From assembly GCF_002019635.1 (NCBI RefSeq), contig NZ_KV917372.1, positions 248,001 through 312,000 of the forward strand: a stretch of 64,000 nucleotides of DNA, given 5' to 3'. The notes under the pieces were generated by a model, which did not search any database, was not told the origin of the DNA, and worked only from the letters and a program-made list of their open reading frames with translations. Below, piece by piece: positions 1 through 19,454 of the stretch (within the stretch, counting starts at the first letter, position 1; the number at the start of each line of letters is the position of its first letter). The translations under genes were made by a program, and so were the position numbers. The DNA comes from Metabacillus halosaccharovorans. Lineage in GTDB: Bacteria > Bacillota > Bacilli > Bacillales > Bacillaceae.

Positions 1-34
1 GGCAGCTGCTATTGATCTTGAAACAGGTAAAGAA

Positions 35-3000
35 ATGAAAATAACCAGAAATCCCATTCGTCAATATCCTAAGAAAGAAGTATACGATTTGGCTCCAGTT
101 CAATTGCCTGAATGGTATCTTCACGAGCTTGAACCAGAAAATCCGTTTTACAATGTGAGCTTTGAATTAATGTTTACCGGTGAGATGAATTTAGCAGCAT
201 TTGAGAAAGCATGGCAGCATCTGATAAATCGACATTCGGCATTACGCATACGTTTTCGAAATGCAGATGGAGTACCTCAGCAAATCGTAACTGGTGAGCT
301 ACCGTTTAAACTAGATAACATTTATGAAAATCGGAACCATGTATTAGAGAATGAAATGAATGACGATATTCGAAAAGTTGCGTATACCCATAATAATCAG
401 GTGTTTGATTTTGAAAAGGGACCATTATTTTCAGTTAGATTAGTGGAATATAGACAAAAGCAATTTTTGATGATGTTTGCTGCACATCACATTATTTGGG
501 ATGAGACTTCTTCTATGAATCTTGTTTCAGAACTTAGCGAACTATATAATGCTTATTCATTAAACAGAATACCAGATTTACCCCAACTGCAAATTGAATA
601 TACTGATTACGCTGAATGGATGAATTCATCAATCCGTGATGGGTCTCTTGAGAGAGAACGCCAATATTGGTTGAACAAATTTGCTGATGTTCCTCCTCCA
701 CTTGAGCTGCCGACAGATTATCAGCGGCCTCCAGTCGTTACGTTTAATGGGGGAACGATTCTTGCCAATATTGACAATGATTTACAGAAAAAGATTGAAG
801 ACTACTGTCAGCAAAATGGCATGACACTGTATATGTTTTTGCTATCGGTACTCAATTTACAGCTGCACCGACTTAGCGGACAAAATCGTTTCACCGTCGG
901 TTCGCCAATCGTCAATCGGGATGACATTAATCTTGAGCATATGATCGGATTATTTGCTACTGCTATTCCATTATCTTGCAACATTACAGAGAAAATGACA
1001 TTTGCACAATTGGCTGAACACAGTAAACAAACAGCCATTGAAGCATATGAAAATCATCTTTATCCGAGTAATTTCGTCATCGACCAGTTGCAAATAGATC
1101 GGGATTTATCACGATCTAAGCTATTTTCTGTTATGTATGGATTGCAGAATAATAAACAGAAATTATTAACATCACTTCATTTTGAAGGCTTGAGCTTTAA
1201 CCCGCGTATCTTTGACTTTGTTGAAGATAGCTCACGATTTGATCTTTCATTTGCATTTGATGAGCTGGAACATGGTATCGAAATCAATTTGAATTATAAT
1301 AGTGATCTTTTTAAGAAATCGACAGCAGAGCGTTTGGTCGAGCAATTCATTTTGCTAACAGAGCAGGTAATTGCTTCGCCTGAATTGGCAATCAAAAAGT
1401 ACCAAATGGTTAATGAGATTGAGAAGCACAAAATGACGGTTGAGTGGAATAAAACCGAACAACCATACGAGAATCAACTGTGCATTCATGAACTAATTGA
1501 AAAACAAGCAGCAAAAACGCCGGATATACCTGCGTTGTATAAACAAGGGAATACGTTAACGTACAATCAGCTAAACGAGAAGGCAAATCAATTTGCTCAT
1601 TATTTGGTTAGTGTAGGTGTGAAGGCTGAAGAAAAGATCGGAGTCATATTCGAACATTCTGCTGAGCTAATCATTTCACTTCTTGCCATCATGAAGGCAG
1701 GAGCAGTGTATGTACCGCTCAACCCAGAGTTGCCAGGCGCTCGGAAGCTGGAAATCTCGAAAACAGCAACACTATCATACATTGTTACAAATAGCTTTAA
1801 TAGCTCTAGCATAGAAGAGTTCAATGGAAGAATTCTAGAATATGATCGTATTCAGCTACCACTGTCTACTATGCCAAAAAATAACGTCGATAACCAGATA
1901 AGTTCTCATAATCTTGCGTACGTATTGTTCACATCAGGTACGACGAATAAACCTAAAGGAATAGAAATTGAACATCGGGGTGTTGTTAATCTTTTCACAT
2001 GGTTAACGCAAGAGTATCCGCTTAAATTAAAAGATTCAGTGCTGATGATGACACCATATTCTTTTGATGCCTCATTATTAGAAATATTTTGGCCTTTAAC
2101 TCAAGGGGCTAAAATTGTTATTCCACAGCAGAACGAATTGAAAAATGTGATTGCACTAGGTGAGCTGGCCTATCAACATCAAGTAGCATTTCTACAATTT
2201 GTTCCGATCATGTTGGAGGAATTTATACATGCACGACGAAATAACGACATTCCTGAGTTACCGTTTTTACGGTATGTCATTTGTGGCGGAGCACCATTAA
2301 CCCGAAAAATACATGACAAATTCAAGGAGCAGTTCAATTGCCGATTAAGCAATCATTATGGGCCAACCGAAGTCACTATTGATTCAGCTGTATTTGTATG
2401 TAACAGGGAATTTGAAGGTGATATCGTGCCAATTGGCAAGCCGATCGCTAACACAAAAATGTATGTGTTAGACGAATGGTTAAATATTGTACCGGTCGGT
2501 GTACCAGCTGAGTTATATATTCAATCCGATGGTCTGGCCCGCGGCTACTTGAACGATCCTATAAAAACGGAAGAAAGCTTTATTGATCACCCATTTTCTA
2601 ATGAACCAGGTAGCAGACTTTACAAAACTGGAGACATTGTCCGCTATTCGAAAGATGGAATGATCCAGTATATCGGACGAAAAGATAATCAAGTAAAGGT
2701 CCGCGGCAATCGGGTGGAATTAGAAGAAGTGGAAACCGTGCTTATGCAGCATCCTGAAATCGGCCGTTCAGCTGTCTTACATCAGAAGGACGAACGTCAA
2801 GATGGACTGATTGCTTATGTCGAGCTTGCAGATGAAATGAAACTGTTCAATGACGACAAAAAGCTCAATCTGTTTACGATTTCACAAATGCCTGGGTTAC
2901 AGGATGGGATGAATCGTCTGCATAGACAAGCTTGGCCTGCTTATTTCTTCGGAGATGAAATCATGGTAGCAAATTGGCCGAAATTATTTCATAGATTTCC

Positions 3001-4093
3001 AGATTATCAGTTTACTTTAACACTGGAAAATGGGGATATTGCAGCTGTCGGGAATACCATACCGATCAGATGGGACGGCACACTTGAAGATCTTCCTGAT
3101 GGGTGGGATGACGGACTGGTACGCGGCATTGAACAATCGGATAAGAATACCATCCCAGACACCTTACTTGTGTTAGCTGGTGTTGTTAATGAAAACTATC
3201 AAGGTCAAGGCTATGCATCCTTACTTATCGAAGCATTCAAGAAGATTGCTGCTGGACATAAGCTGAAACGTATCATCCTGCCTGTTCGTCCAACGGGTAA
3301 AAGCTTATATCCTAAACATTCATTTTCTGAATATTGCCATCTTACTAGAGAAGATGGATTACCTGTTGATCATTGGTTGCGAACACATATCAAAGCAGGC
3401 GGGGAAATCTTGAAAAATGCGGAAACCTCACAACAAATTGAGGGTAGTATAGAGGATTGGGAACATTGGGCAAATACGACATTCACAAAAACCGGCTATT
3501 ACCACCTAAAGGATACGTTACAACCAGTTTGGATTGACATTGAAAAGGGATGTGGAATCTACCAGGATCCAAGTGTATGGTTCCAACACTTTCTACCAGC
3601 TAAAAAAGAAGAAGGTGGCTGGACACCAATAAACCCTGAAGGACTGCTAGATGATATAAAACAAAGGCTACCGGATTACATGGTGCCACAGCAGATCATC
3701 TTCGTTAAGAAAATGCCGTTAACAGCAAACGGTAAAATAAACAAAAAAGCACTAATTAAGCAGGAAACCATCCAGGAACAAACACGGGAATTGGTAGCTC
3801 CTCAAACAGAAACAGAAGCAGTTATTATGAAAATTTGGAAAGAAATATTACAACTAGAAGAGATCGGAGTAACTGACAGTTTCTTTGAACTAGGGGGACA
3901 TTCCTTAAAAGCAACTGCAGTTGTCGCTCGGATTAATTCAACATTTGAATGTGCGCTCTCACTTCGGGAAATGTTTGAAGCTCTCACGATCCGAAGCTTG
4001 GCACAAGTTATTGAAAACAAAAAGACCGAACCGAGCAATGACACAGGGATTCGTTTTAAAAAGGTCGAACGTCGTGTAAGAACAAGAAATTAA
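35..4093 (+). CDS. NRPS, C-A(GNAT-interrupted)-PCP module
   Basis: Nonribosomal peptide synthetase module, cytoplasmic. The condensation domain spans about residues 15-450, with active-site motif HHIIWDE at 151-157; the usual final Gly of HHxxxDG is Glu. The adenylation domain starts near 470, with LFTSGTTNKPKG around 631, NHYGPTE, YKTGD and GRKDNQVKVRG around 880. About 245 residues (roughly 945-1190) then interrupt it; they resemble a GNAT acyltransferase (YQGQGYA near 1054). The A domain resumes at LPDYMVP and ends with NGKINKKAL. The carrier domain has LGGHSLK with phosphopantetheine Ser1290. My manual alignment to the GrsA pocket gives D-A-L-Q-I-G-H-I-D-K, which I cannot assign to a substrate. 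The frame is open from the left edge to this ATG and the upstream Shine-Dalgarno is weak, so the protein may begin outside the window. Confidence 0.93.
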   Translation: MKITRNPIRQYPKKEVYDLAPVQLPEWYLHELEPENPFYNVSFELMFTGEMNLAAFEKAWQHLINRHSALRIRFRNADGVPQQIVTGELPFKLDNIYENRNHVLENEMNDDIRKVAYTHNNQVFDFEKGPLFSVRLVEYRQKQFLMMFAAHHIIWDETSSMNLVSELSELYNAYSLNRIPDLPQLQIEYTDYAEWMNSSIRDGSLERERQYWLNKFADVPPPLELPTDYQRPPVVTFNGGTILANIDNDLQKKIEDYCQQNGMTLYMFLLSVLNLQLHRLSGQNRFTVGSPIVNRDDINLEHMIGLFATAIPLSCNITEKMTFAQLAEHSKQTAIEAYENHLYPSNFVIDQLQIDRDLSRSKLFSVMYGLQNNKQKLLTSLHFEGLSFNPRIFDFVEDSSRFDLSFAFDELEHGIEINLNYNSDLFKKSTAERLVEQFILLTEQVIASPELAIKKYQMVNEIEKHKMTVEWNKTEQPYENQLCIHELIEKQAAKTPDIPALYKQGNTLTYNQLNEKANQFAHYLVSVGVKAEEKIGVIFEHSAELIISLLAIMKAGAVYVPLNPELPGARKLEISKTATLSYIVTNSFNSSSIEEFNGRILEYDRIQLPLSTMPKNNVDNQISSHNLAYVLFTSGTTNKPKGIEIEHRGVVNLFTWLTQEYPLKLKDSVLMMTPYSFDASLLEIFWPLTQGAKIVIPQQNELKNVIALGELAYQHQVAFLQFVPIMLEEFIHARRNNDIPELPFLRYVICGGAPLTRKIHDKFKEQFNCRLSNHYGPTEVTIDSAVFVCNREFEGDIVPIGKPIANTKMYVLDEWLNIVPVGVPAELYIQSDGLARGYLNDPIKTEESFIDHPFSNEPGSRLYKTGDIVRYSKDGMIQYIGRKDNQVKVRGNRVELEEVETVLMQHPEIGRSAVLHQKDERQDGLIAYVELADEMKLFNDDKKLNLFTISQMPGLQDGMNRLHRQAWPAYFFGDEIMVANWPKLFHRFPDYQFTLTLENGDIAAVGNTIPIRWDGTLEDLPDGWDDGLVRGIEQSDKNTIPDTLLVLAGVVNENYQGQGYASLLIEAFKKIAAGHKLKRIILPVRPTGKSLYPKHSFSEYCHLTREDGLPVDHWLRTHIKAGGEILKNAETSQQIEGSIEDWEHWANTTFTKTGYYHLKDTLQPVWIDIEKGCGIYQDPSVWFQHFLPAKKEEGGWTPINPEGLLDDIKQRLPDYMVPQQIIFVKKMPLTANGKINKKALIKQETIQEQTRELVAPQTETEAVIMKIWKEILQLEEIGVTDSFFELGGHSLKATAVVARINSTFECALSLREMFEALTIRSLAQVIENKKTEPSNDTGIRFKKVERRVRTRN
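2868..3600 (+). other. GNAT-like domain nested in the adenylation domain
   Basis: Part of the first NRPS coding region, about residues 945-1190. It sits between core motif A8 (GRKDNQVKVRG) and the A10 lysine motif (NGKINKKAL). It contains AGNTIPI-like and WDGT segments (here VGNTIPIRWDGT), then VVNENYQGQGYASLL, which fits GNAT motif A (Q/RxxGxG/A) for acyl-CoA binding, then REDGLPVDHWLR and later VWIDIEKGCG. From memory this resembles stand-alone proteins of about 260 residues annotated as GNAT-family transferases. Placement between A8 and A10 is the same site where methyltransferase, reductase and oxygenase domains interrupt other A domains. It may acylate the amino acid on the neighbouring carrier; that function is inference. 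Confidence 0.75.
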
Positions 4094-4202: not shown

Positions 4203-7200
4203 TTGAATTCTCCATTTTTACAAAAACTAACAATCTGTTTTTTAATGATGATTCTATTTCTGTTATTTCCTCAAAAAGCATTCACCATTGCAGATGTTCA
4301 ACCAAACGTATCACCTGAACGGATAAGTGAAATCGAGCAGTGGGTAGAGGAACAAATGATGAAAGCAGAAATACCCGGCATGTCTGTCACGATTGTAAAT
4401 GGAAAAGAGACATTGTATCAGCAGGGATTTGGTTATTCTGATCTATCCGAAAAGACACCAGTGTCAGATGCAACTGTTTTTGAAATCGGCTCTAATAGCA
4501 AGGCCTTTACAGCTCTTGCGGTGCTGAAGCTTGAGAAAGAAGGAAAGCTGAAACTAAATGATCCTGTTGATCACTATATCCCTTGGCTAAAGGCTACGTT
4601 TAATGGAAAACCTGCGGTGATTACAATCGAGCAATTGCTTCATCATACCAGTGGGATTCCATTTGAGACAATAGGAAAGCTCCCAGAAGGCTATGGTGAG
4701 GATGCACTAGAGAATACGGTACGTATCATCGAAGATTACCAGTTAAACAGGGAGCCTGGTGAAAGTTTTGAATATGCAACAATCAATTATGATGTTCTTG
4801 GTCTTGTGATTGAAAAGGTTACAGGACAAGCCTTTGCCGATTATTTGGGGGAACAAATCCTTAAACCTTTAGGACTGACAGATACATTTGTATTGAAAGA
4901 ACCTGGTGTACTTGAGGAAGCAGCGACAGGATATAAATTTGGCTATACAGATCCACGTCCATATGAACCTCCATTTTATGTAGGGAATGCACCAGCGGGA
5001 TATGTCATGAGCAATGCTCGGGATATGGCTTTATGGCTTAAAATTCAACTTGACACTGTACGTGAAGGAAGCTTCGATTTCTCTCTAATCGATGCTTCCC
5101 ATCTTGCAAACCGCTCTGTCAAACCGGACTTCAATGGTTCCTCTTATGCTGCAGGATGGGATGTGTTTCAGAAGGGTGAAGGTGAAATCTCACATGCAGG
5201 AAATAACCCTACTTTTTCATCGTTTATTAGTATGCGTCCAGGAGAGGAAATTGGGGTTGTTGTTTTAGCGAACATTAACACAGATTACACCCAGGTCATT
5301 GGTCAAGGAATACTTCATCAATTGATTGGAGAAGAACCACCATTGTTAACGTCAGACACATACAAAAAAGTAGATTCCATTGCAGTTGGACTAATTGTTG
5401 CCTTGCTGCCGATTAGCATCATTGTCTTTATATATGTGCTTACAACAATTAGAGCAATTATTAGAGGAGAACGACACGGAGTTTTTAACAAGATCCGATC
5501 TTATTTCTCTCTTTTGCTTCATTTGCTTGTGCTCGGAGCTGCGGCAATGGCTATTTATAAAGTGCCTGACATTTTGTTTTATAAGCTGACATGGCGGTTT
5601 ATCCAAGTATGGATGCCAGAAACAGTATTTACAGCTGTTTGGCTTATCATCATAGCGGGAGGCTTATATGCGATTTATTCATTGCTTCTCACCTTTTTTC
5701 CAAAGAAAAAGGAGAAATCTTTTTTAAAACCCATTGTCCTTGGAGTGGTAAGCGGAGTAGGGAATGCCTTTGTTATTTTTATCATTAATGAATCAATCGT
5801 CCGAACAAACAACTTAACAAATGGCTTGCTTTTCTACTTTGTCATAGCCATTTTGATGTATGTGGTCGGACAACGCTATGTAAGGGCTATACTCGTGAAT
5901 CTGACTAACGAAATTATATATGAAAAAAGGATCGAGCTAATTGATAAGATATTGAATACACGTTTCTCAATATTGGAAGGAATTGAACGCGGACGTGTTG
6001 AGGCAACACTTAACAATGATACTGAGGTCATTAGCCGTTCTATCGGTATTGTGATTTCAGGTGCAACGAACTTAATAACACTTGTTTTTTGCTTTCTTTA
6101 TCTAGGTGTGATGAATGTATACGCGTTGTTTCTTTCCATTGCAATCATCGTCTTTTTAGCCATTCTGTATTTAGTAGTCGGTAACCGGGCCAACAAAATC
6201 ATGGAGGAAACACGTGATTTGCAAAATGTATTTTTCGGATTTATCGCAGATATGCTGAGTGGTTTCAAAGAGCTTACACTGAACATCAAGAAACGTTGTG
6301 ATTTCCGCAAAGGACTTCAGGAAAGCTGTAATAGTTACAAAGAAAAGCGAAATATATACCAGTTGCGTTATTCCGATATTTTCGTATTAGGTGAACTGTT
6401 ATTTGTCCTGGTCATTGGCTGCGTTGTTTTTGTTTTTCCAGAGATCTTTAAGCAGATGGATCAAATCATGCTTAGTAACTATGTATTTGTTTTTTTGTAC
6501 ATGACAGGCCCTGTCAATCAGCTGCTTGATAGTGTCCCTCATTTTGCGCAAATTCGAGTAAGCTGGGACAGAATCAAGCAGATGAATAAAGAGTTGAATT
6601 CACTGGAGGAACATCCAACTGATGGCCTTAATTTCAATGAATCTGAGTCTGTTCAATTGAGGATGAATGACGTGACATACAGCTATAATGGGGCAAATGA
6701 TATAACTCATTCAAGCTTTGAGGTAGGTCCGATCAATTATGAGTTTCGAAGTGGAACCATTGTTTTTATTACAGGGGGAAATGGAAGTGGGAAATCCACA
6801 CTCGCTAAGCTTCTTACAGGATTGTATGAACCAGATGCTGGTCATATAACCCTAAATGGAGACTCGATTTCACCTATTGAATTAGGGCAATACTATTCTG
6901 CAATTTTCGGAGATTACCATTTGTTTGATCGTTTTTACGGAATAGATTGGCAAGCGAAGGAAGTTGAAATGAATTACTACCTGGAACGTTTGGAATTACA
7001 AGATAAGCTTAAGATACACAATGGGGTGTTCAGTACGACGAAGCTATCAACTGGTCAGAAAAAAAGGCTGGCCCTCCTCATCACCTATCTTGAGGACAAG
7101 CCGATCTGTCTTTTTGATGAATGGGCCGCAGATCAAGATCCTGAATATCGTCGTTTCTTTTACGAAGTCCTATTGCCGGAAATGAAAGCCGACGGGAAGT

Positions 7201-7313
7201 GTATTATTGCTATTACCCATGACGATCATTATTTTCATCTTGCTGATCACATGATTAAGATGGACATGGGACAAATGTCGGTAATGGAACCGGCAGCTCA
7301 GAGATCTTTTTAA
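4203..7313 (+). CDS. Serine hydrolase (beta-lactamase fold) fused to cyclic-peptide ABC exporter
   Basis: Membrane protein of 1036 residues starting at TTG, with GAAGGGAG just upstream. An N-terminal signal or anchor segment is followed by a class C beta-lactamase/D-Ala-D-Ala-peptidase-like domain (about 40-380). It has the catalytic SNSK tetrad at 97-100, YAT where related proteins have YxN, and HAG near 330 in the place of the KTG box. Hydrophobic segments run from about 390 to 800. A PvdE/SyrD-type ATPase follows: Walker A GGNGSGKST near 860, signature STGQKKRL, Walker B CLFDEWAADQDP and the switch motif THDD. The serine hydrolase part should face outside. Position inside the NRPS operon suggests export of the peptide coupled to a final hydrolysis or acyl transfer. 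The architecture is clear; the substrate is inferred. Confidence 0.9.
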   Translation: MNSPFLQKLTICFLMMILFLLFPQKAFTIADVQPNVSPERISEIEQWVEEQMMKAEIPGMSVTIVNGKETLYQQGFGYSDLSEKTPVSDATVFEIGSNSKAFTALAVLKLEKEGKLKLNDPVDHYIPWLKATFNGKPAVITIEQLLHHTSGIPFETIGKLPEGYGEDALENTVRIIEDYQLNREPGESFEYATINYDVLGLVIEKVTGQAFADYLGEQILKPLGLTDTFVLKEPGVLEEAATGYKFGYTDPRPYEPPFYVGNAPAGYVMSNARDMALWLKIQLDTVREGSFDFSLIDASHLANRSVKPDFNGSSYAAGWDVFQKGEGEISHAGNNPTFSSFISMRPGEEIGVVVLANINTDYTQVIGQGILHQLIGEEPPLLTSDTYKKVDSIAVGLIVALLPISIIVFIYVLTTIRAIIRGERHGVFNKIRSYFSLLLHLLVLGAAAMAIYKVPDILFYKLTWRFIQVWMPETVFTAVWLIIIAGGLYAIYSLLLTFFPKKKEKSFLKPIVLGVVSGVGNAFVIFIINESIVRTNNLTNGLLFYFVIAILMYVVGQRYVRAILVNLTNEIIYEKRIELIDKILNTRFSILEGIERGRVEATLNNDTEVISRSIGIVISGATNLITLVFCFLYLGVMNVYALFLSIAIIVFLAILYLVVGNRANKIMEETRDLQNVFFGFIADMLSGFKELTLNIKKRCDFRKGLQESCNSYKEKRNIYQLRYSDIFVLGELLFVLVIGCVVFVFPEIFKQMDQIMLSNYVFVFLYMTGPVNQLLDSVPHFAQIRVSWDRIKQMNKELNSLEEHPTDGLNFNESESVQLRMNDVTYSYNGANDITHSSFEVGPINYEFRSGTIVFITGGNGSGKSTLAKLLTGLYEPDAGHITLNGDSISPIELGQYYSAIFGDYHLFDRFYGIDWQAKEVEMNYYLERLELQDKLKIHNGVFSTTKLSTGQKKRLALLITYLEDKPICLFDEWAADQDPEYRRFFYEVLLPEMKADGKCIIAITHDDHYFHLADHMIKMDMGQMSVMEPAAQRSF

Positions 7314-7381: not shown

Positions 7382-8095
7382 ATGAAAACCATTTTGTTTT
7401 GCATTCCTTATGCGGGTGATTCAGCGACCATTTATATGCAATGGAAACAACTACTTGGAAACCATATTGAACTTTATCCACTTGAACTAGCCGGGAGAGG
7501 AGCCAGATATGACGAACCTTTTGATTCGAATTTCACCAGCATGATGAACGATCTTGCAGCACAGATTAAGCAATATGCAAAAAATAAACAATATGCGATA
7601 TTTGGTCACAGCATGGGGGCGGTCTTGGCTTATGAACTCTATTATTTGCTAAGTGAAGAGAGGTTTCCACAGCCTCGGCATTTATTTCTTTCCGGCCGGC
7701 CGGCACCTGCCCAAAATGTCCGAAAAAAAAGTTTTTTATCCAAGCTTGTTCATGAGAAGGTTGGAGAGTTATTTCAACAAAGTAGAGATATACCAAATGA
7801 GATCGCGAAACACCCGGAACTGGCTAAAAAATTCAGACAAGTACTTAAATCAGATCTTCGCATTATGAATACATATAATTCTATGCCCAAACAAGAAAAA
7901 ATGAAGTGCCCCGTCACCATTTTTAGCGGGAAGAAGGATGAAATCAGTGAGGAAGAAATACTAGCGTGGAGAGATCATTCTAACAATGATTGCAAGATTG
8001 TATGGGTAAAAGGTGATCATTTTTTCCTGCATACCAGAAAAGAAGAATTGGTCTCAGTCATCAATCAGTCGATTCCTGAAATAATTTCTAGTTAG
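7382..8095 (+). CDS. Type II thioesterase (GrsT/SrfAD family)
   Basis: Alpha/beta hydrolase of 237 residues, the usual size for external thioesterases of NRPS clusters. The nucleophile elbow is GHSMG with Ser77; the likely triad partners are Asp186 (SGKKDE) and His213 (KGDHFFLH). Such enzymes remove misprimed or stalled acyl groups from carrier domains. It begins with ATG after GAGGTG and ends 12 bases before the next NRPS gene, so it is cotranscribed. Because no integral thioesterase domain is visible on the three synthetases, it might also take part in product release, which is inference. Confidence 0.93.
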   Translation: MKTILFCIPYAGDSATIYMQWKQLLGNHIELYPLELAGRGARYDEPFDSNFTSMMNDLAAQIKQYAKNKQYAIFGHSMGAVLAYELYYLLSEERFPQPRHLFLSGRPAPAQNVRKKSFLSKLVHEKVGELFQQSRDIPNEIAKHPELAKKFRQVLKSDLRIMNTYNSMPKQEKMKCPVTIFSGKKDEISEEEILAWRDHSNNDCKIVWVKGDHFFLHTRKEELVSVINQSIPEIISS

Positions 8096-8107: not shown

Positions 8108-11100
8108 ATGGAAATGAAACAATGCTACGAGACTTCGTCTGCACAGAGACGAGTGTATATTCAGCAACAATTCAATCCGCAAAGCACTGCTTATAATCTT
8201 CCTACTGTATTTAAAGTAGAGGGGAAATTGGATAATAACCGTCTGGAAGAAGCGATGGTGAAGCTGATCAGGCGACATGAATCATTGAGAACCACTTTTG
8301 AAGCTGATCTTAAAAATAACGATATTTCTCAAATTATATTAGATAGCGTGTCTTTTAAGTTAGACGTGTTGAATGCAGAAGAAGATAAACTTCATGAATG
8401 TATAGACCAGTTAATTAAACCCTTCCAATTGGATCAAGCACCACTATTTTGTGTGAAAATCATTTACACATCAGAGGATAACTGTTACCTGTTTTTTGAT
8501 ATCCACCACATTATAGCGGACGGCATTTCCATTCAAACAATCATGAAAGAAATGATGCTGCTATATAAGGGAATGGAACTGCCACCTGTTGAAGTACAAT
8601 ATGTCGATTATGTTATGTGGCAAAACGATTTGTTTAACCAGCAAGGAATCCGCAGCCAAGAATGTTATTGGATGAGGCAATTCAATGACGAACTCCCAGT
8701 TTTAGATTTACAAACTGACTTTTTACGTCCGGTTAAAAACGAAGGGTTTGGCAAGTATGTTTATTTTCAAATAGAAAAACCGGTCATCAATCAGTTGAAA
8801 GAGCTTGCCCGCAAGGAAGATGCGACATTGTTCATGGTCCTTTTCAGTTTATATACAACCCTACTGCAGCGATATACATCCCAAACTGACATTGTTATTG
8901 GAACACCAATTGCAGGTCGCAGGCATGCAGAGCTGGAACCAGTGATTGGGATGTTTGTCAATACGCTCGCCCTTCGTATTAAATCAAGGGGGACGATGTC
9001 ATTTCGCCAATTGCTATCAGAAGTGAAGCATACAGCACTAGCAGCATATGAAAATCAAGATTATCCATTAGATCAAATGGTCGAAAAGCTTAAGATCAAT
9101 CGTTCGTCTGACAGACATCCTTTGTTTGATACCATGTTTGTTTTGCAAAATATGGATACAGCTCATGTTGATATGGATGGCTTACACTTTCAACCTTTTG
9201 AGCTAAAGACATGCAGTGCCAAATTCGATCTTACCTTAGAGTTAACGGAAAAAGACGGATTGATATCTGGAAAGCTGGAGTATAATGCGGAATTGTTCGA
9301 AAAACAAACAGCAGAAAGGATCACACAGCATTTTACGAATATTGCCGAACAAGCTGCTGAAATTCCTGATCAACTTCTCCATCAGTTTGAAATCATGGGC
9401 TTTGAAGAGAAGAAGGAGATTCTTGAAGAATTCAATGATTCAGCAACAGATTTTCCACTTAAAACAATTTCGCAATTATTTGAGGAACAGGTAACTCTTC
9501 ATCCTGATCAACCTGCTGTACTTTACGATGGGGATAGTTATACATATCGTGAATTAAATGAAAGAGCTAACCAACTCGCTCGTACATTACATGCTAAAGG
9601 AATCTCGAATTCAAAGGCTGTTGGAATAATGGCTGAGAGATCCATGGAATTAATCGTTGGTATGCTTGCCGTTAGTAAGACAGGAGCTGCTTATGTTCCA
9701 ATTGAACCGGATTATCCTAGTCAAAGAATTTCAAATATGCTAGAAGACAGCGGAAGCGAATGGCTTTTAGTACAAGGAGCAATCAAGCAGGATATTCCTG
9801 ATCATTTGGAGATCATTGATTTACAAAACCCAATGCTGTACACAGGAGAGAAGTACAATCATAACTTATCCACTGATCCAGATAGCACTGCGATTATGAT
9901 CTTCACTTCAGGAACATCTGGCAGACCAAAAGGAATTATGGTGACGAACAGGGGGATATCCCGTCTTGTCAAGGAAACTAATTATGTAGAATTAAATCAC
10001 CAAACACGAATGCTTCAAACCTGTGCATTAGGATTTGACGTTTTTACATTTGAAACATGGGCACCGTTACTAAATGGAGGACGTCTTTATTTAACAAATA
10101 AGGAAATATACCTTGATGCTGAAAAATTAAATCCCTTTTTATTAGAACATAAAATCAATCTCATGGTTCCAACTACAGCGCTCTTTAATCACTTGCTAAA
10201 TCAAGACCCGAATATTTTTAATACACTCGATACCATTATAGTTGGTGGGGAAGTGATGTCACCTCCACATGTTCGCTTACTTAAACAGAATCATCCAACT
10301 GTGAAGCTAAAGAATGGTTATGGACCAGCTGAAAATACAACATATACGAGCATTTATGATGTAACAGGTTTCGAAACGGGAAGTATTCCAATCGGAAAAC
10401 CTATTTCGAATACGAGCTGTTATGTTTTAGATCCTTTTCTTCAACCTGTACCAGTTGGCGTGGCAGGAGAATTGTTTATTGGCGGTGATGGAGTAGCGAG
10501 CGGGTATGCGAATCGAAATGACCTATCAGAAGAAAAATTCATCACTGTTCCTTCTCTTCAAGGGAAAAGGGTTTACCGGACTGGAGATTTAGTGAAATGG
10601 CGTTCTGACGGTCATTTAATCTACCTTGGTCGACAAGACGATCAGGTGAAAATTAGAGGGTATCGAATCGAGCTAGAAGAAATTAATCAACATGTATTGG
10701 GGCTCCCGAACGTTTTGGAATCTGTTGTGATACCGATAAAGACAGCGAATAAAGAAACAAAGCTATGTGCTTATTATACTGCAGAATCATTGATTACCTC
10801 TTTGGAAATGCGAAATATGCTTTTGCAGCAACTACCTGATTTTATGGTTCCTGAACTTTACATGCAGGTAGAAAAAATGCCATTGTCAGCGAATAACAAA
10901 ATTAACAAAAAGGCATTGCCAATTCCTGAATTTGCACCAATTCCTACAGAAAAGCAACAAGTTGAGGATGAATTGGAACGAGCCGTTGCACAAGTGTGGC
11001 AGGAGGTACTAGCAATAGATGTAATCGGTGTTAACGATAATTTCTTTGCAGTCGGAGGACAATCCTTAAAAGCTACTCTTGTTGTAGCAAAACTCCGTAA

Positions 11101-12568
11101 GGTATTAAATGTGGACATTGGCTTAAATGATTTGTTTCTACATCCAACAATCAAAGATTTAGCTAAGCTGCTTCGAAGTAGAGAAAAAGTGAGTGCCGGG
11201 ATAGAAGTAAAATCAGTTGAGAAACGAGAGTATTACCCTGCAACATCTCAACAAACACGAATGATGATTGTTGACAAAATGAAGCGGGTCTCTGATACAA
11301 GCCAAAACATTACAGATATCTATTGGGTAGAAGGAAAACTGGATATTAATCGGGTGAGAGATGTATTTCAACAATTGATCGACAGGCATGACTCGCTAAG
11401 AATGTCTTACCACCTAACGAAGAAAGGTCTGATGTTTAAGGTAATCGAAAAGCTAGAATCAGAACTTACAATGTTCAAGGGAACGGAGGAGCAAATACCA
11501 GATCTTATCAATACTTTCGTTCAACCGTATGTTCTTTCGGAAGCTCCTTTGTTCAGAATCGGTCTGATTGAAGTAGCTGATGATAAGCATCTACTAATCT
11601 TTGATATTCATCATAGTATTTCAGATGGTTTTTCTTTGGGTTTATTAGTTAAAGAGTTTGTTACCTTGTTCCATGGAGGTCAACTGCCTAGATTAGAATT
11701 TCAGTATAAGGATTATGCAATATGGCAACAGTCCTTTACCAAAACAGAAAAATGGGAACGACAAGAAGAATTCTGGTTAGAGGAAATGGATGGGACCATC
11801 CCAACCATGAATTTGCCACTGGATTTTCAGCGTCCATCTGAAAAAACGTATGAAGGGAAATTGTCGGATTTCCAAATTTCAGAAAAACTAACAGAACAAT
11901 TAAAGCAAGTGGCAGTGAATGAAAACACCACACTCTATACCGTATTACTTACTGCTTACTATACATTATTATACAAATATTCAGGTGCGGAAGATATGAT
12001 CATTGGTGCTCCTGTTGCAGGGCGCAATCAAGCGGAATTTCAGCAAATGTTTGGTTTGGTGACAAATACACTGCCGCTCCGTAATTACCCTTCCGCACAC
12101 AAAACATGGCGGCAGTTTTTACAAGAAGTACGGCAAAATACAATCCAGGCATTTGAAAATCAAGATTATCAGCTAGAACAGTTGTTAGAAAAATTGGGAA
12201 TTAGCCCTTCAGTTAATCGTAACCCTTTATTTGATACACTCTTTGTTTTGCAAAATATGGACATTCCACCAATTAACCTGGAAGGATTGCGTTTTGTTCC
12301 ATATCTTCAACAACGAAACACAAGTATTATAGATTTGATTTTAGTCGCGAAAGAAGAATCAGGCAGAATCACTTTTACATTTGAATACTGTACCCAGTTA
12401 TTCAAAAGAGAAACGATTAAACAAATGGAAGTACATTTTATCACCCTCTTAGAAAGTATGGGACAAGGTGATTTAGACAAAACGCTGATTCAGCTCCAGC
12501 TCAATGCTGACAAAACTGTAAACAATGATCAATACAGGAATAATTTAGCCGATACATTTTCGTTCTAA
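8108..12568 (+). CDS. NRPS, C-A-PCP-C
   Basis: Synthetase of 1486 residues. Order: condensation domain with HHIIADG (His133-His134); adenylation domain with MIFTSGTSGRPKG, NGYGPAEN, YRTGD, RQDDQVKIRG and SANNKINKKAL; carrier domain with VGGQSLK (Ser986); second complete condensation domain with HHSISDG (His1168-His1169). The protein stops after this second C domain, which must act with a carrier on another protein. Manual pocket reading gives D-V-F-V-I-G-G-T-Y-K. That shares the I-G-G-T pattern of known valine-type pockets such as DAFWIGGTFK, so a branched or hydrophobic residue is a weak guess. An AGGAG sits ahead of ATG, and the gene follows the thioesterase by 12 bases. Confidence 0.95.
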   Translation: MEMKQCYETSSAQRRVYIQQQFNPQSTAYNLPTVFKVEGKLDNNRLEEAMVKLIRRHESLRTTFEADLKNNDISQIILDSVSFKLDVLNAEEDKLHECIDQLIKPFQLDQAPLFCVKIIYTSEDNCYLFFDIHHIIADGISIQTIMKEMMLLYKGMELPPVEVQYVDYVMWQNDLFNQQGIRSQECYWMRQFNDELPVLDLQTDFLRPVKNEGFGKYVYFQIEKPVINQLKELARKEDATLFMVLFSLYTTLLQRYTSQTDIVIGTPIAGRRHAELEPVIGMFVNTLALRIKSRGTMSFRQLLSEVKHTALAAYENQDYPLDQMVEKLKINRSSDRHPLFDTMFVLQNMDTAHVDMDGLHFQPFELKTCSAKFDLTLELTEKDGLISGKLEYNAELFEKQTAERITQHFTNIAEQAAEIPDQLLHQFEIMGFEEKKEILEEFNDSATDFPLKTISQLFEEQVTLHPDQPAVLYDGDSYTYRELNERANQLARTLHAKGISNSKAVGIMAERSMELIVGMLAVSKTGAAYVPIEPDYPSQRISNMLEDSGSEWLLVQGAIKQDIPDHLEIIDLQNPMLYTGEKYNHNLSTDPDSTAIMIFTSGTSGRPKGIMVTNRGISRLVKETNYVELNHQTRMLQTCALGFDVFTFETWAPLLNGGRLYLTNKEIYLDAEKLNPFLLEHKINLMVPTTALFNHLLNQDPNIFNTLDTIIVGGEVMSPPHVRLLKQNHPTVKLKNGYGPAENTTYTSIYDVTGFETGSIPIGKPISNTSCYVLDPFLQPVPVGVAGELFIGGDGVASGYANRNDLSEEKFITVPSLQGKRVYRTGDLVKWRSDGHLIYLGRQDDQVKIRGYRIELEEINQHVLGLPNVLESVVIPIKTANKETKLCAYYTAESLITSLEMRNMLLQQLPDFMVPELYMQVEKMPLSANNKINKKALPIPEFAPIPTEKQQVEDELERAVAQVWQEVLAIDVIGVNDNFFAVGGQSLKATLVVAKLRKVLNVDIGLNDLFLHPTIKDLAKLLRSREKVSAGIEVKSVEKREYYPATSQQTRMMIVDKMKRVSDTSQNITDIYWVEGKLDINRVRDVFQQLIDRHDSLRMSYHLTKKGLMFKVIEKLESELTMFKGTEEQIPDLINTFVQPYVLSEAPLFRIGLIEVADDKHLLIFDIHHSISDGFSLGLLVKEFVTLFHGGQLPRLEFQYKDYAIWQQSFTKTEKWERQEEFWLEEMDGTIPTMNLPLDFQRPSEKTYEGKLSDFQISEKLTEQLKQVAVNENTTLYTVLLTAYYTLLYKYSGAEDMIIGAPVAGRNQAEFQQMFGLVTNTLPLRNYPSAHKTWRQFLQEVRQNTIQAFENQDYQLEQLLEKLGISPSVNRNPLFDTLFVLQNMDIPPINLEGLRFVPYLQQRNTSIIDLILVAKEESGRITFTFEYCTQLFKRETIKQMEVHFITLLESMGQGDLDKTLIQLQLNADKTVNNDQYRNNLADTFSF

Positions 12569-12597
12569 TTCAAATGGCGAAACGGGGGAAGGAAACG

Positions 12598-15120
12598 ATG
12601 TTTGTTTTAACAGAAGAAACGGTCAAAATGAGAGAGTTTTGGGTGGAGCAGCTCTCAGGTGAAAAGCCATCAAACATGCTTTTACCTGATGAACTCAGGA
12701 CGCCCAGCACGATGCAGCCTGCAATCGGTATGGTAGAAACGAATATAGTTGATGATACATTTAGAAGCCTTACACAATACTGTAAAGAATCAGACTTTCT
12801 CTGGTATTGCTTTTTGTTCTCCGGTCTAAACGTGTGCTTATATAAATACTCAGGCTATCAGGACTTTCTAATAGGTTCGCCTCATCAAGATAAAATGAGC
12901 AAGAATGAAAGCATCCTGCCAATCCGTAGCGAAATAGATTCGGAAATGAGTTTCAAAGAATGGGTGCTTCAAGTGAGAGAAAGGCTGGCTGTTGCATATG
13001 AATTTCAGCAGTTTCCATTAGATATGCTGGTAAGTGAGCTTGGATTATCTGTAGATAGTGGAACAAATTCTTTGATTAATTTGGTCGCTTCATTTGAAGG
13101 GTTACACGCTCCATTTTCAAGTGAAATAAATGGACAAACAATCCAGATTTTATTCAGTCGAAGTGGGGGAAAGCTGGGGATCAAGCTGCAGTATCCTTCT
13201 GAGTATTATGCGAAAGATTCCATCAAACGATTCGTACACTCTTTTAAACATGTTCTTCAATCAGCAGTACGTCATATCGACAAACCTATCAAGGAATTGT
13301 CGATATGCCTGCCAGAAGAAGAACATATTATCTTGAACGAATTCAACATACAACTTCCGAAGGCTGAAGGAAAAAAGACAATAGTTGGATTTTTTGAACA
13401 GCAAATCGCCAATCATGTTGACAAGGTCGCTTTAATTGATAAGAACAGACAGATGACTTATAGTGAGCTAAATCATCAATCCAACAAGTTAGCGGCTGTT
13501 CTTAAAAAAAATTGGAACATCAAGCCTAATGAATTTGTAGCAGTTTACATGAATCGCGGGATAGATTATATCGTATCGATTTTGGCTGTCTTAAAAGCGG
13601 GTGGAGCTTATGTCCCACTTGATATCGATTATCCAAATGAGCGGATTCAATATATTTTAAAAGATAGTAAGGCAAAATTATTACTTACTGATCATGAAAC
13701 GGAAAACCTGTCAACTGATTCAATACCTATCTTACAAGTCTTTGATTTACTGGATGGAGAAGAGCAACAACTAGACATCTCGTACTCTACTAAATCAGAG
13801 GATTTGGCTTATCTGTTATATACTTCGGGAACAACAGGATTTCCAAAAGGGACATTGATTGAACAGCGCAATGTCATTCATTTAGTAGTTGATCAGGACT
13901 ATTTAACATTCAATTCTCAAACATGTATGTTACAGGCATCATCTGTTGTGTTTGACTTATCAACTCTCGAAATATGGGGGACCTTACTAAATGGTGGTAC
14001 CCTGGTGCTCGTAGACAAACAAACCTTAATAGAACCTATGAAATTAGAAACTGCCATACAGAATTATAAGGTCAACTCAGCTATTTTAACAACTGCCCTT
14101 TTTCATCATGTAGCAAGCCATCGACCGGAGTTATTCAAAGAACTTACCCAATTATTAACAGGAGGAGAGACCCTATCAGCTGTATTAGCAGACAAAGCTC
14201 TCCAAATGAACCCTGAACTTAAACTGGTTAATGCTTACGGACCAACAGAATGTACAGTGTTAACAACAGCACATGATGTGAAAATTGGTGAAAAAGGGAA
14301 TATTTCAATCGGCAAACCAGTCAAGGGTACAAATGTCAAGATAATCGGGGTAGACGGAAAGATTCAGCCGATAGGGGTTCTTGGAGAATTGTGCATAGTA
14401 GGTAATGGTGTAGGTCGAGGTTACTTAAATAAACCAGAAACAACCTGCGAATGTTTTATACCAGATACGGATCAGGAAAATCGCTTGATGTACAAAACAG
14501 GTGACCTTGCAAGATGGCGTGAAGATGGCAGCATTGAATTTCTAGGACGTAAAGACCGACAAGTGAAGTTACGTGGATATCGCATTGAACTTGGTGAAAT
14601 TGAAAATTGTCTCCTTAATCACAAGGATATCCTTGAAACAGTCGTTCTTCCAATTGAAGTAAACAAGGAACAAATACTGTGTGGGTATATCGTTCAAACA
14701 GCTCAATCGGATGCGGATGTCTACGATCTACAAATGTATTTAAAGCAAACCTTACCAGAATATATGGTTCCTGCTGCATTTGTTCCGGTTCACCGAATTC
14801 CATTAACAGTAAGTGGCAAATTGGATGTTACTAAGCTTCCAGTACCGACTGAACTTCATTTTGGTATCCAACAAGAAAAGGATGATAGATTACCCCAAAG
14901 TGAGGAAGAAAGAAAGATTGCAGCAATTTGGTCCGATATATTAGGGATTCACCAAATCACACTTGATCACAATTTCTTTGAATTAGGCGGGCACTCACTC
15001 AAGTTAATTCTGCTTGCTGAACAGCTGCAACAAGCCGGATATCCCGTCAATACAATGGATTTGTACAAATACCCGACTATTGGTAGTTTCCTGGAAAACC
15101 ACTGGAAGCAGAGAAATTAA
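12598..15120 (+). CDS. NRPS, half condensation domain-A-PCP
   Basis: Synthetase of 840 residues. I start it at ATG 12598, which has GGGGGAAGG five bases upstream, rather than at the in-frame ATG 12574. The first 220 or so residues match only the C-terminal lobe of a condensation domain (FWVEQL...DFLIGSP...AYEFQQFPLDMLV). The lobe carrying HHxxxDG is absent, so this part should be inactive alone. Then come adenylation motifs LLYTSGTTGFPKG, NAYGPTE, YKTGD, GRKDRQVKLRG and TVSGKLDVTKL, and a carrier with LGGHSLK (Ser800). No thioesterase or reductase follows. Manual pocket reading: D-L-L-I-L-G-A-V-L-K, not assigned. The complete C domain ending the preceding protein may serve this module. Confidence 0.93.
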   Translation: MFVLTEETVKMREFWVEQLSGEKPSNMLLPDELRTPSTMQPAIGMVETNIVDDTFRSLTQYCKESDFLWYCFLFSGLNVCLYKYSGYQDFLIGSPHQDKMSKNESILPIRSEIDSEMSFKEWVLQVRERLAVAYEFQQFPLDMLVSELGLSVDSGTNSLINLVASFEGLHAPFSSEINGQTIQILFSRSGGKLGIKLQYPSEYYAKDSIKRFVHSFKHVLQSAVRHIDKPIKELSICLPEEEHIILNEFNIQLPKAEGKKTIVGFFEQQIANHVDKVALIDKNRQMTYSELNHQSNKLAAVLKKNWNIKPNEFVAVYMNRGIDYIVSILAVLKAGGAYVPLDIDYPNERIQYILKDSKAKLLLTDHETENLSTDSIPILQVFDLLDGEEQQLDISYSTKSEDLAYLLYTSGTTGFPKGTLIEQRNVIHLVVDQDYLTFNSQTCMLQASSVVFDLSTLEIWGTLLNGGTLVLVDKQTLIEPMKLETAIQNYKVNSAILTTALFHHVASHRPELFKELTQLLTGGETLSAVLADKALQMNPELKLVNAYGPTECTVLTTAHDVKIGEKGNISIGKPVKGTNVKIIGVDGKIQPIGVLGELCIVGNGVGRGYLNKPETTCECFIPDTDQENRLMYKTGDLARWREDGSIEFLGRKDRQVKLRGYRIELGEIENCLLNHKDILETVVLPIEVNKEQILCGYIVQTAQSDADVYDLQMYLKQTLPEYMVPAAFVPVHRIPLTVSGKLDVTKLPVPTELHFGIQQEKDDRLPQSEEERKIAAIWSDILGIHQITLDHNFFELGGHSLKLILLAEQLQQAGYPVNTMDLYKYPTIGSFLENHWKQRN

Positions 15121-15799: not shown

Positions 15800-17257
15800 A
15801 TGAAAGTAGATAATTTGTTACATGATGAGACACTATCAGGAAGAATTTCGGCTTCTCCAAGCATGCTATTGCATGAAGAGATATTAAAACCCCAATTTGA
15901 TTATGAACTGAAGCATTTATTACCTTATTATATTCAGATCGAAGAAGTCATGACAATTGAATATGAACGATTGGGCCTGATAAGTAAAGAATCGATGGTT
16001 GAAATCGTCAATCTGCTAAATCAAATAACAAAAGAAAATATCACGGCAGATCCAAAAAGTAATATGTCTGACATCTGCTTTGCTATCGAACAGTATGTAG
16101 AATCAAGAATGGAACATCCTGTCCCTAATTGGCATGTTGACCGCAGCAGGAATGATGTACAAGCAACTGCACAGATCATGTTTGCTCGTGAAAATTTAGT
16201 GACTATCATGGAAGAAATAACAGAACTTATTGAAGAAGTGTTGGCACTATCCAACGACAATTTGTCTGTTCCTATGCCAGGCTATACCCACTATCAATCA
16301 GCCCAAATTATTACAGTTGGTTTTTACTTTACAGCTGTTAGTGAAGTCCTGCATAAGTCCTTGAATAGAATGATAAAACTCTATGATGAAATTAATAAAT
16401 GTCCATTAGGGTCTGGAGCAATGTCAGGCATGGAGCTTGAATGGAATCGAGCAGAAATGGCAACTAAACTAGGCTTTCAAGATTCATCACATGCATTAGT
16501 ATCTGTAGCTTCAAAGGAATGGATGCTTCAAATTGCTGCAGAATGTTCGAATTTAGCAACTGTAATAAGTCGATTTATCACAGACCTCATTACTTGGGGC
16601 AGCAGTGAATATAAATTCTTTGTTTTGCCTGATGAAATGTCAGGGATATCATCAGCTATGCCGCAAAAAAAGAATTATCCGATTCTTGAACGAATCCGCG
16701 GGCGTAGCGTACATATCAATTCCTATTATTATGACATGCTAAATGCCCAGCGTAATACACCTTTTACAAATCTTGTAGAGACAGCTAAAGAAGGGGGAAG
16801 CAATTTTTACCCGATGATTACTTGTATGAAAAGTGTGTTAAAGCTTTATACGGCAGTGATCAAAGCGATGAAGTTCAATAAAGAACATATGTATGAAATG
16901 TGTGCAAATGATTTTTTTGGAGGTTTTTCTCTAGCAAATTTATTAACTTTGCAATGTTCCATTCCATATCGTCAATCCCAAATTATATCAGGAAAATATA
17001 TAGTAGCCATGAATGCACAAAATCGTAAGCCAAATGAAGTAGAGCTTTCATTTTTAAATGAATTATGCGAAAAGTATGGGTATAAATCGTCACTCACAGA
17101 AGATCAGTTAATAGAAATCTTTAGCATCACGGAAAGTCTTTCAAGAAAAAAGACTAAAGGCTCAACAAATCCACTTGAAATCAAGCAATTGATTGACCAA
17201 CAAAAAGCTATTTTAAGAGAACAGAAACAGCAAATTGTTGACCTTAAAAGGAAATAA
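15800..17257 (+). CDS. Argininosuccinate lyase/fumarase superfamily enzyme
   Basis: Cytoplasmic enzyme of 485 residues. It carries the conserved regions of the superfamily: DRSRNDVQAT (region 1), PGYTHYQSAQ (region 2) and the signature GISSAMPQKKNYP (region 3, with the catalytic serine loop). Typical members eliminate fumarate from an N- or O-linked succinyl adduct. Placement in the NRPS cluster next to a cysteine-synthase-like gene suggests a biosynthetic rather than arginine-pathway role; there is no argG nearby. GGAGGGAGAA precedes the ATG. The C-terminal 30 residues are rich in Lys, Gln and Glu and look like a short coiled coil. Real ArgH remains possible but is less likely from context. 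Confidence 0.85.
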   Translation: MKVDNLLHDETLSGRISASPSMLLHEEILKPQFDYELKHLLPYYIQIEEVMTIEYERLGLISKESMVEIVNLLNQITKENITADPKSNMSDICFAIEQYVESRMEHPVPNWHVDRSRNDVQATAQIMFARENLVTIMEEITELIEEVLALSNDNLSVPMPGYTHYQSAQIITVGFYFTAVSEVLHKSLNRMIKLYDEINKCPLGSGAMSGMELEWNRAEMATKLGFQDSSHALVSVASKEWMLQIAAECSNLATVISRFITDLITWGSSEYKFFVLPDEMSGISSAMPQKKNYPILERIRGRSVHINSYYYDMLNAQRNTPFTNLVETAKEGGSNFYPMITCMKSVLKLYTAVIKAMKFNKEHMYEMCANDFFGGFSLANLLTLQCSIPYRQSQIISGKYIVAMNAQNRKPNEVELSFLNELCEKYGYKSSLTEDQLIEIFSITESLSRKKTKGSTNPLEIKQLIDQQKAILREQKQQIVDLKRK

Positions 17258-17334
17258 AAAACAAGAGTGGAATTTCGATTGCCTAGCTTCTGGGTAGAAA
17301 AAGTAAGAAAAATATGACTGAGGGTGTGAGGATC

Positions 17335-18366
17335 TTGTATCAAAACATTATTGAAACCATTGGTAATACTCCTTTAGTAAAACTTCGTCTTGATAAACAG
17401 TCGATTGGGGAAGTTTACGCAAAATTAGAACTACAGAACCCATTTGGTATGAAGGATCGAGTGGCAAAGAACGCAATTCTTGCAGCAAAGGAATCCGGTG
17501 AATTACAGGATGGCCAACCTATCTTTGAAAGTTCATCAGGCACATTGGCATGCGGAATCGCACTAGTCGGTACTTCACTTGGCCACCCTGTCCATATTGT
17601 CACAGATCCAAGATTAGATTCCATCACTCTAGCAAAATTACACTCTCTAGGTTGTCATGTGCATGTGGTGGATAAAATGGGAGCTCAAGGTTGGCAAGGA
17701 GGCCGCTTGGAATTATTACATAGATTGTTGGAGCAACACCCGGATGGATATTGGTTAAGACAATATGAAAATCCCTCTAACCCTGAATCATATACCGGTT
17801 TAGCCCAAGAGTTGATTGATGATCTTGGACAAGTAGATATCTTGATCGTTGCAGTCGGAACTGGAGGATCCATCTCCGGGACAGCTAGGGAATTAAAAAA
17901 ATACAATCCAAATTGTAAAGTAATCGCTGTTGATGCAACGGGAAGTGTTATTTTTGGACAACCAGATAGGCCAGACCGCCTGCAGGGCGGTATTGGGAAC
18001 TCATTAGTTGCCAGAAATGTTGATCATACTTTAATTGATGAGGTACACTGGCTAAATGATCAAGAGGCATACGCTGCTACACATGTGCTCGCAAGACACG
18101 AAAAAATATTTGCAGGCAATTCTTCCGGTTCTGTTTATGCTGTTGCACGGTGGGTAAGCCGCTTTGTCGAACCAAACACGAAAATAGCTGCTATATTTCC
18201 GGATCGCGGTGACCGTTATGCAAACACTATTTACAATCATGATTACCTTAAAACGAAAGGAATTAATGTGGAACTCACCTTTGATCCAAAACAAGTAGAT
18301 AGAAATGATGTTGTTCATTCATGGTCTTACGCATCATATCGTGAAAATACAGTTTTGAAAATATAA
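17335..18366 (+). CDS. Cysteine synthase family PLP-dependent enzyme
   Basis: Fold-type II PLP enzyme of 343 residues. I choose TTG 17335 (LYQNIIETIGNTPLVKL, the usual family start) with GAGGGTG eight bases upstream; an in-frame ATG lies at 17314 without a good site. The PLP lysine is in NPFGMKDR; the phosphate loop is VGTGGSISGTA. The substrate loop reads ESSSGTLACG, lacking the Asn of the classic SGNTG motif, so the nucleophile is probably not simple sulfide. The family performs beta-replacement on activated serine. With the neighbouring fumarate-lyase-like enzyme it could build an amino acid such as 2,3-diaminopropionate by an aspartate adduct; that is a hypothesis. Confidence 0.87.
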   Translation: MYQNIIETIGNTPLVKLRLDKQSIGEVYAKLELQNPFGMKDRVAKNAILAAKESGELQDGQPIFESSSGTLACGIALVGTSLGHPVHIVTDPRLDSITLAKLHSLGCHVHVVDKMGAQGWQGGRLELLHRLLEQHPDGYWLRQYENPSNPESYTGLAQELIDDLGQVDILIVAVGTGGSISGTARELKKYNPNCKVIAVDATGSVIFGQPDRPDRLQGGIGNSLVARNVDHTLIDEVHWLNDQEAYAATHVLARHEKIFAGNSSGSVYAVARWVSRFVEPNTKIAAIFPDRGDRYANTIYNHDYLKTKGINVELTFDPKQVDRNDVVHSWSYASYRENTVLKI

Positions 18367-19437: not shown

Positions 19438-19454
19438 ATAAAGACAAAGCGCAA

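Follow-up and report, generated by a model that had tools for sequence, protein, structure and literature searches.

A GNAT-family domain interrupts an adenylation domain of a dimodular nonribosomal peptide synthetase from Metabacillus halosaccharovorans and recurs in distant bacteria

A stretch of 64,000 nucleotides of Metabacillus halosaccharovorans DNA (NZ_KV917372.1, 248,001-312,000), here called the window and numbered from its first letter, opens within the gene of a dimodular nonribosomal peptide synthetase (NRPS) that carries a GNAT-family domain inside one of its adenylation domains. The protein comprises 2448 amino acids in the order C-A-T-C-A[GNAT]-T (C, condensation; A, adenylation; T, thiolation or carrier domain). 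Its gene starts at G000:C2:244747, 5' of the window, and the 3' part occupies positions 2..4093 on the forward strand, on which the other domains and genes of the cluster given below with window coordinates are located as well. An earlier, sequence-only reading of the window had called it the first NRPS; this did not hold, as the protein begins outside the window and two NRPS genes lie upstream (L034). The C domain of the second module (74..1435; PF00668, residues 14-467) carries the active-site motif HHIIWDE at 485-505, as compared with HHxxxDG. It is followed by the adenylation core (1472..2827), which extends up to the strand LIAYVEL behind A8 and has the specificity code DALQIGHID. Of its motifs, we take A3, A5 and A7 to be located at 1928, 2351 and 2621, A8 to be GRKDNQVKVRGNRVELEEVE (2675-2734), A9 to be LPDYMVP (3668-3688) and A10 to be NGKINKK (3728-3748). 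Between A8 and A9 lies the embedded domain of about 245 amino acids (2858..3592; PF00583) with the acyl-CoA loop QGQGYA and the conserved stretches PVRPTGK and WLRTH. The rest of the C-terminal sub-domain of the A domain follows at 3635..3748, and the module ends with its T domain (3821..4012; PF00550, residues 1263-1326) bearing a GGHS motif.

KKLNLFT and VWFQHF mark the two ends of the insert, which corresponds to residues 942-1186 of the open reading frame; the frame stays open across it. The AMP-binding_C profile PF13193 is split at this site. The protein from M. halosaccharovorans matches only profile positions 43-76, 3' of the insert (3635-3736), while a copy from Burkholderia glumae matches positions 2-37 on the 5' side. 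In all twelve aligned copies, core motifs of the A domain flank the insert on both sides at the A8-A9 site. The GNAT-type interruption that the earlier reading had placed at 2868..3600 was borne out, with limits that differ by a few codons, and its acyl-CoA loop YQGQGYA was found at 3197-3217. The split had been assigned to the region between A8 and A10. It is indeed 3' of A8, but more exactly between A8 and A9, with A10 further on.

Searched alone, the insert matched Acetyltransf_1 (PF00583) with an E-value of 8.1e-6 and 26.5 bits, above the gathering score of 20.7, which agrees with the GNAT assignment made before. At E<=0.01, this profile was matched by 29 out of 38 family members. The motif A loop reads QGxGxA in eleven embedded copies and QGHGLS, ending in S, in the twelfth; the GNAT consensus is given as (Q/R)xxGx(G/A) in the available text of PMC3701320. 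The insert is collinear with stand-alone proteins of approx. 250 amino acids along nearly its entire length, so that a whole domain was apparently inserted cleanly. Identities between the M. halosaccharovorans insert and the 27 aligned stand-alone homologues range from 29 to 42%. Thirteen residues, R1116 and H1118 included, are invariant across the 38 sequences of the family. The dN/dS of the insert was between 0.06 and 0.15 in seven non-independent pairs and equal to that of the A core, which indicates that the insert is maintained by purifying selection. Six further residues are fixed in eleven embedded copies and present in no more than two of the 27 stand-alone proteins; two of these, L1045 and G1049, are located just before the acyl-CoA loop. 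They suggest a changed substrate use.

The same residues could be taken as a sign that the domain is catalytically dead or regulatory and kept for folding or carrier docking, since with L1045 and G1049 near the loop its chemistry may differ. The retention of the CoA loop and of all thirteen invariant residues as well as the low dN/dS speak against this, and it is considered unlikely. In a phmmer search of the PDB, the insert by itself matched an ATP-grasp protein at 0.0062, which was taken as chance; GNATs appeared at about 0.1 and CurA at 0.83. A chance or assembly artefact was ruled out by the twelve distinct copies, their single group in the tree, the low dN/dS and the stand-alone homologues that can be aligned with almost all of the insert. 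As far as can be told from sequence, the insert is confirmed as an intact GNAT-family domain inside an A domain.

Homologues were detected at E<=0.001 in 38 of 398 genomes of the class. Embedded matches in this sample numbered seven in five genomes, namely, M. halosaccharovorans, G086, G364, G382 (two copies) and G391 (two copies), with open frames of 1182-2471 amino acids. Genome G398 added two copies, and in its family four out of 23 genomes contained the embedded form. In the Metabacillus family (3 of 80 genomes with embedded copies), Bacillus sp. J37 and Metabacillus niabensis were added, same genus as the host. Two smaller family searches gave no new embedded copy, as the only carrier among three genomes was G086 itself and there was none embedded among seven. 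A homologue was also present in 38 plasmid records, thirteen of which were examined in detail. Three records from B. glumae are annotated as adenylation proteins, and the one examined was confirmed to be embedded. In total, twelve distinct full embedded copies were obtained from Bacilli and B. glumae. Furthermore, a contig of Ca. Aminicenantes begins within the insert and shows a downstream junction identical in kind. A tblastn search of plasmids with the interrupted A core listed 25 of 2761 records, and none of those listed exceeded 45% identity.

In the tree, eleven embedded rows were separated from 27 stand-alone rows with a support of 100/100. The tree omits the M. niabensis copy and two partial rows of the 29 non-redundant stand-alone ones; its root serves for drawing only and was not determined, and the B. 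glumae row sits on a long branch. In view of this separation, one insertion between A8 and A9 with subsequent spread of the module would be the simplest reading. Because the fused module recurs in unrelated bacteria, the embedded GNAT probably has a function in the enzyme, the modification of one building block.

The best solved relative of the family profile (38 members) was the loading GNAT of CurA (2REE) with E-values of 1.5e-9 for alignment A3 and 3.7e-8 for alignment A5. It was followed by the N-acetyltransferase 4mbu (0.0081) and by the polyketide synthase (PKS) GNATs 7uci and 7ucl (0.014 for alignment A3 and 0.0039 for alignment A5). According to the available text of PMC3701320, CurA uses His389 and Thr355 for catalysis and Arg387 for binding the 3'-phosphate of CoA, and decarboxylation is drastically reduced in the variant T355V. 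From the printed profile alignment and counting by hand, Arg387 corresponds to R1116 and His389 to H1118, both of which are invariant in all 38 sequences, whereas Thr355 corresponds to Val1084 in PVRP, a position with at least 90% conservation among them. Both domains share LRxH with the CoA-binding Arg and the catalytic His within a DxxLRxHxxxGxxI-like region. They differ in the residue at the Thr355 position and in their setting, a PKS loading module for CurA and an NRPS A domain for the insert. As Thr is replaced by Val, the His-Thr dyad of the decarboxylase is broken, and decarboxylation of the CurA type is disfavoured. The retained Arg for the 3'-phosphate favours acyl-CoA over the carrier arm as acyl donor.

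It was nevertheless considered whether the insert acts on a thioester like CurA, either by decarboxylation or by acyl transfer to or from the carrier arm, and not on an amine. The rank of 2REE, the matches to 7uci and 7ucl and the common His and Arg would be in agreement with such a reaction. On the other hand, Val1084 occupies the position of the catalytic Thr and a malonyl-type substrate is not expected in a module of this kind, which makes this explanation improbable.

The interrupted A domains are uniform in their specificity code. The nine usual positions read DALQIGH(V/I)D in twelve out of twelve copies. We know of no specificity code that DALQIGHVD matches, and a search for the code strings in the openly licensed literature gave no match. 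In the preceding module, the code was DVWEINADD in eight and DIWEITADD in three of the eleven copies that have this module on the contig. Similar codes of the form D(I/V)WExxADD were present in four plasmid clusters, near a diaminobutyrate transaminase gene in Methylocystis, near an ornithine carbamoyltransferase gene in Streptomyces and in two unannotated ones. Given this proximity to diamino-acid genes, the preceding module likely activates a diamino acid.

The C domain that immediately precedes A[GNAT] is also distinctive. HHIIWDE was found in all eleven copies that have its sequence on the contig, compared with HHxxADG for the C domain of module 1 in the nine copies where it is present. 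In the twelfth genome, G086, 91 bases separate HHIIWDE from the end of contig C62, a position that would fit a gene running on into C67. A degenerate DNA pattern for HHIIWDE matched two of 299 class genomes, a sample without G364, G382 and G391, and both are insert carriers. When the studied loci were scanned for HHxxxDx, 55 matches ended with G and twelve with E. Eleven of these twelve were HHIIWDE, and the remaining HHxxxDE was a chance match in an exporter gene. One might imagine that this C domain and the GNAT together form a regiochemical switch. The GNAT would then use the acyl group of acyl-CoA to mask one of the two amines of a diamino acid on the carrier, and the C domain would join the chain through the other one, giving an isopeptide or ring precursor; alternatively, the GNAT would use the aminoacyl-carrier thioester as donor. 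We regard such a switch as decidedly doubtful.

An SbnA-type match, pointing to 2,3-diaminopropionate (Dap) supply, was obtained in all twelve interrupted clusters. In six of them (G382:C20, G391:C16, G086, G364, G398:C1 and B. glumae), SbnA exceeded the TIGR03945 cut-off and was accompanied by an SbnB match. The other six (M. halosaccharovorans, J37, M. niabensis, G382:C19, G391:C20 and G398:C3) had an SbnA-like protein that scored 233-263 bits and so missed the cut-off, although no NCBIfam model matched it better than SbnA; in these clusters, an argininosuccinate-lyase-like gene takes the place of SbnB. This second set would make Dap through an Asp adduct. In the window, the two genes are located at 15800..17257 and 17314..18366. 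The former encodes the argininosuccinate-lyase-like protein (PF00206; TIGR00838 with 265.4 bits, below the cut-off of 279.5), which may be the second Dap-supply enzyme in clusters that show no SbnB. The latter encodes the SbnA-like, pyridoxal phosphate (PLP)-dependent enzyme, which would supply Dap (TIGR03945 with 262.6 bits, below the cut-off of 349.95 and above the 192.2 bits for cysteine synthase). In B. glumae, a ParB-N protein showed a weak match to the serine kinase SerK (4.3e-7, far below cut-off) and would, if the match is meaningful, feed O-phosphoserine to SbnA.

As a control, SbnA above cut-off was found in 56 of the 398 class genomes versus four of the five insert carriers, each time inside the cluster (Fisher p=0.0016, kinship ignored); the fifth carrier, M. 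halosaccharovorans, belongs to the sub-cut-off set. With E<=1e-60 as sole threshold, the SbnA search matched 393 of 398 genomes, which was put down to cysteine synthases, and thus only the matches above cut-off are informative. Neither an SbnA-type match nor any other query gene of the interrupted clusters was found around the stand-alone homologues of Bacilli (11 of 11). Likewise, no SbnA-type match was present in the five plasmid records searched (L037, L038, L039/L060, L064 and L069), although the Sinorhizobium records among them do carry NRPS, ParB-N and phosphopantetheinyl transferase (PPTase) genes.

Taking together the A motifs, the CoA loop of the GNAT with its Arg and His, the carrier Ser, the altered C domain and the co-occurrence of these elements, we propose that the insert binds acyl-CoA and transfers the acyl group in cis to a nitrogen or oxygen in the side chain of the residue on the adjacent T domain, working together with the dedicated HHIIWDE C domain. 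We give this proposal an even chance of being correct. The interrupted A domain would adenylate an amino acid and load it onto the adjacent carrier, the embedded GNAT would bind acyl-CoA, and the acyl group would be passed on to an amine or hydroxyl in the side chain of the residue on the carrier. This residue could be the one loaded by the A domain itself or, after condensation, the upstream Dap-type residue. The modified acceptor would then pass through the dedicated C domain, as the co-occurrence of both suggests.

The internal position of the module fits acylation of a side chain better than that of the alpha-amine. Alpha-N-acylation is unlikely at such a position, because an acylated alpha-amine would block normal extension. 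It would make the module a chain starter whose loaded amino acid is acylated by the insert at its alpha-amine. The insert does adjoin its own carrier, and methyltransferases in interrupted A domains modify residues on the carrier at their main-chain nitrogen according to the available text of PMC11355689. However, the A domain is preceded by a C domain with HH and D retained, in one protein with an upstream C-A-T, in M. halosaccharovorans, J37, M. niabensis, G364, G382, G391 and G398. An acylated alpha-amine could not serve as the usual acceptor there, so that a chain-starting module appears very improbable.

Some observations weigh against the proposed side-chain acylation. Nine of the 38 family members fail E<=0.01 for PF00583. 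The Tyr that usually acts as general acid in GNATs is a His in the insert, as in CurA, and no residue was assigned to the role of the general base, which is Glu in canonical N-acetyltransferases. Moreover, the GNAT of CurA, the nearest solved relative, is reported to be without N-acetyltransferase activity in the available text of PMC3701320, and N-acyl transfer by the insert is therefore not to be assumed. Concerning Dap, the SbnA-like protein stays below its family cut-off in half of the clusters, and the link may concern the preceding module with its diamino-like code rather than the interrupted one.

The NRPS gene is followed by a gene for a fusion protein of a beta-lactamase-family peptidase and a cyclic-peptide ABC exporter (4203..7313; PF00144 and TIGR01194), which resembles ZmaM of the D-Asn prodrug type. 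Further downstream are a type II thioesterase (7382..8095; PF00975), an NRPS C-A-T-C (8108..12568) with the code DVFVIGGTY and an NRPS with partial C-A-T (12574..15120) and the code DLLILGAVL. The last one opens with a C domain of which the C-terminal half alone is present (profile positions 189-453), though the preceding gene ends with a C domain of its own. The same half domain is present in Bacillus sp. J37 (L084:6690-9224) and is therefore no local sequencing error. The Dap-type genes are followed by a separate GNAT of 145 amino acids at the cluster end (18401..18838; PF00583, E=8.8e-13), a candidate for a self-resistance acetyltransferase. It is kept in J37 and M. niabensis at 91-94%. Genes for IS3-family transposases lie immediately downstream of the cluster at 18949-20297.

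Upstream of the 2448-amino-acid NRPS, the cluster contains thioesterase-like and PPTase-like genes, an ATP-grasp ligase, a starter NRPS, an aminotransferase and an NRPS-PKS. The starter NRPS (L034:3436-7956) has two PF00668 stretches, each of which may be a condensation or an epimerization domain, and the code DLTKIGEVG, which we take to be a code for Asn. The PLP aminotransferase of 472 amino acids (L034:7988-9406) is present in five of the clusters as covered here (M. halosaccharovorans, J37, M. niabensis, G382:C20 and G364), with 70-98% identity to the M. halosaccharovorans protein; its best family match, aspartate aminotransferase of the archaeal type, scored far below the cut-off. A peptidase-exporter that follows a D-Asn prodrug logic is described for the zwittermicin, edeine and paenilamicin clusters in the available text of PMC9889268. 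With its beta-lactamase-ABC fusion and its starter NRPS with presumed Asn code and two C-family domains, the M. halosaccharovorans cluster resembles these ZmaM, EdeA and PamJ clusters; a GNAT inside an A domain is not mentioned for them in the available part of that article (PMC9889268). An exporter homologue was found in eight of the twelve GNAT-interrupted clusters; for each of the other four, the 30-50 kb examined contained none. It is therefore probably context and not essential to the interrupted module. That the insert is tied to a D-Asn prodrug system was judged unlikely from the same count, the clusters being covered in part.

Stand-alone homologues were observed in other surroundings. 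In Streptomyces globosus, the homologue (L064:9992-10741) lies between arginine beta-hydroxylase and epimerase genes in a streptothricin-like cluster; the streptothricin literature gave no lead on a GNAT homologue among the matches listed. On Sinorhizobium plasmids (L060:25626-26964), the homologue stands beside ParB-N, NRPS, SagB-type and PPTase genes. Its open frame encodes 262 amino acids, and the annotated start seems to truncate it. Proteins of approx. 510 amino acids, which are encoded beside NRPS genes in B. glumae (L036:22372-23910) and Sinorhizobium (L060:27122-28657), had no Pfam match at E<=0.01.

The sequence-only reading knew of no characterised A domain interrupted by a GNAT. Consistent with this, none appeared among the matches listed in searches of the openly licensed literature aimed at such a domain or at neighbouring subjects, a coverage that does not include the major reviews on interrupted A domains. 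To our knowledge, no products of the GNAT-interrupted cluster family have been described. The engineering of bifunctional NRPS modules takes interrupted A domains as its templates. A C-A[GNAT]-T unit that evolved naturally, is portable and occurs in distant bacteria would add acylation to the insert types and offer a ready test system, while the combination of HHIIWDE, DALQIGHVD and the GNAT is a searchable signature for the cluster family.

Methyltransferase, oxidase and ketoreductase inserts are described for interrupted A domains in the available text of PMC11355689, and the present insert, a GNAT by profile, belongs to none of these types. It is most readily compared to the methyltransferase-containing A domains of TioS, KtzH and McyA (PMC11355689, available text). 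These are of the A8-A9 type as well, with A motifs kept on both sides and the auxiliary domain adjoining its own carrier. They differ in the family of the inserted domain, and the GNAT form is known here from its sequence. The stand-alone GNAT homologues of Bacilli, streptomycetes, rhizobia and Proteus share homology over nearly the full length and all thirteen invariant residues, but they are encoded by separate genes, and the embedded group is set apart from them by the tree and the six diagnostic residues. Concerning the possible product, the NRPS Fda1 for fusadapamide from Fusarium poae is of interest in the available text of PMC12751119. Fda1 loads Dap and has an interrupted A domain, and its product bears a beta-acetylated Dap; its embedded domain, however, is an N-methyltransferase. 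The source of the acetyl group is unsettled there. The candidate acetyltransferase is encoded separately, and production was not lowered when its gene was deleted (PMC12751119). As a nonribosomal peptide that contains beta-acetylated Dap, fusadapamide is a chemical precedent.

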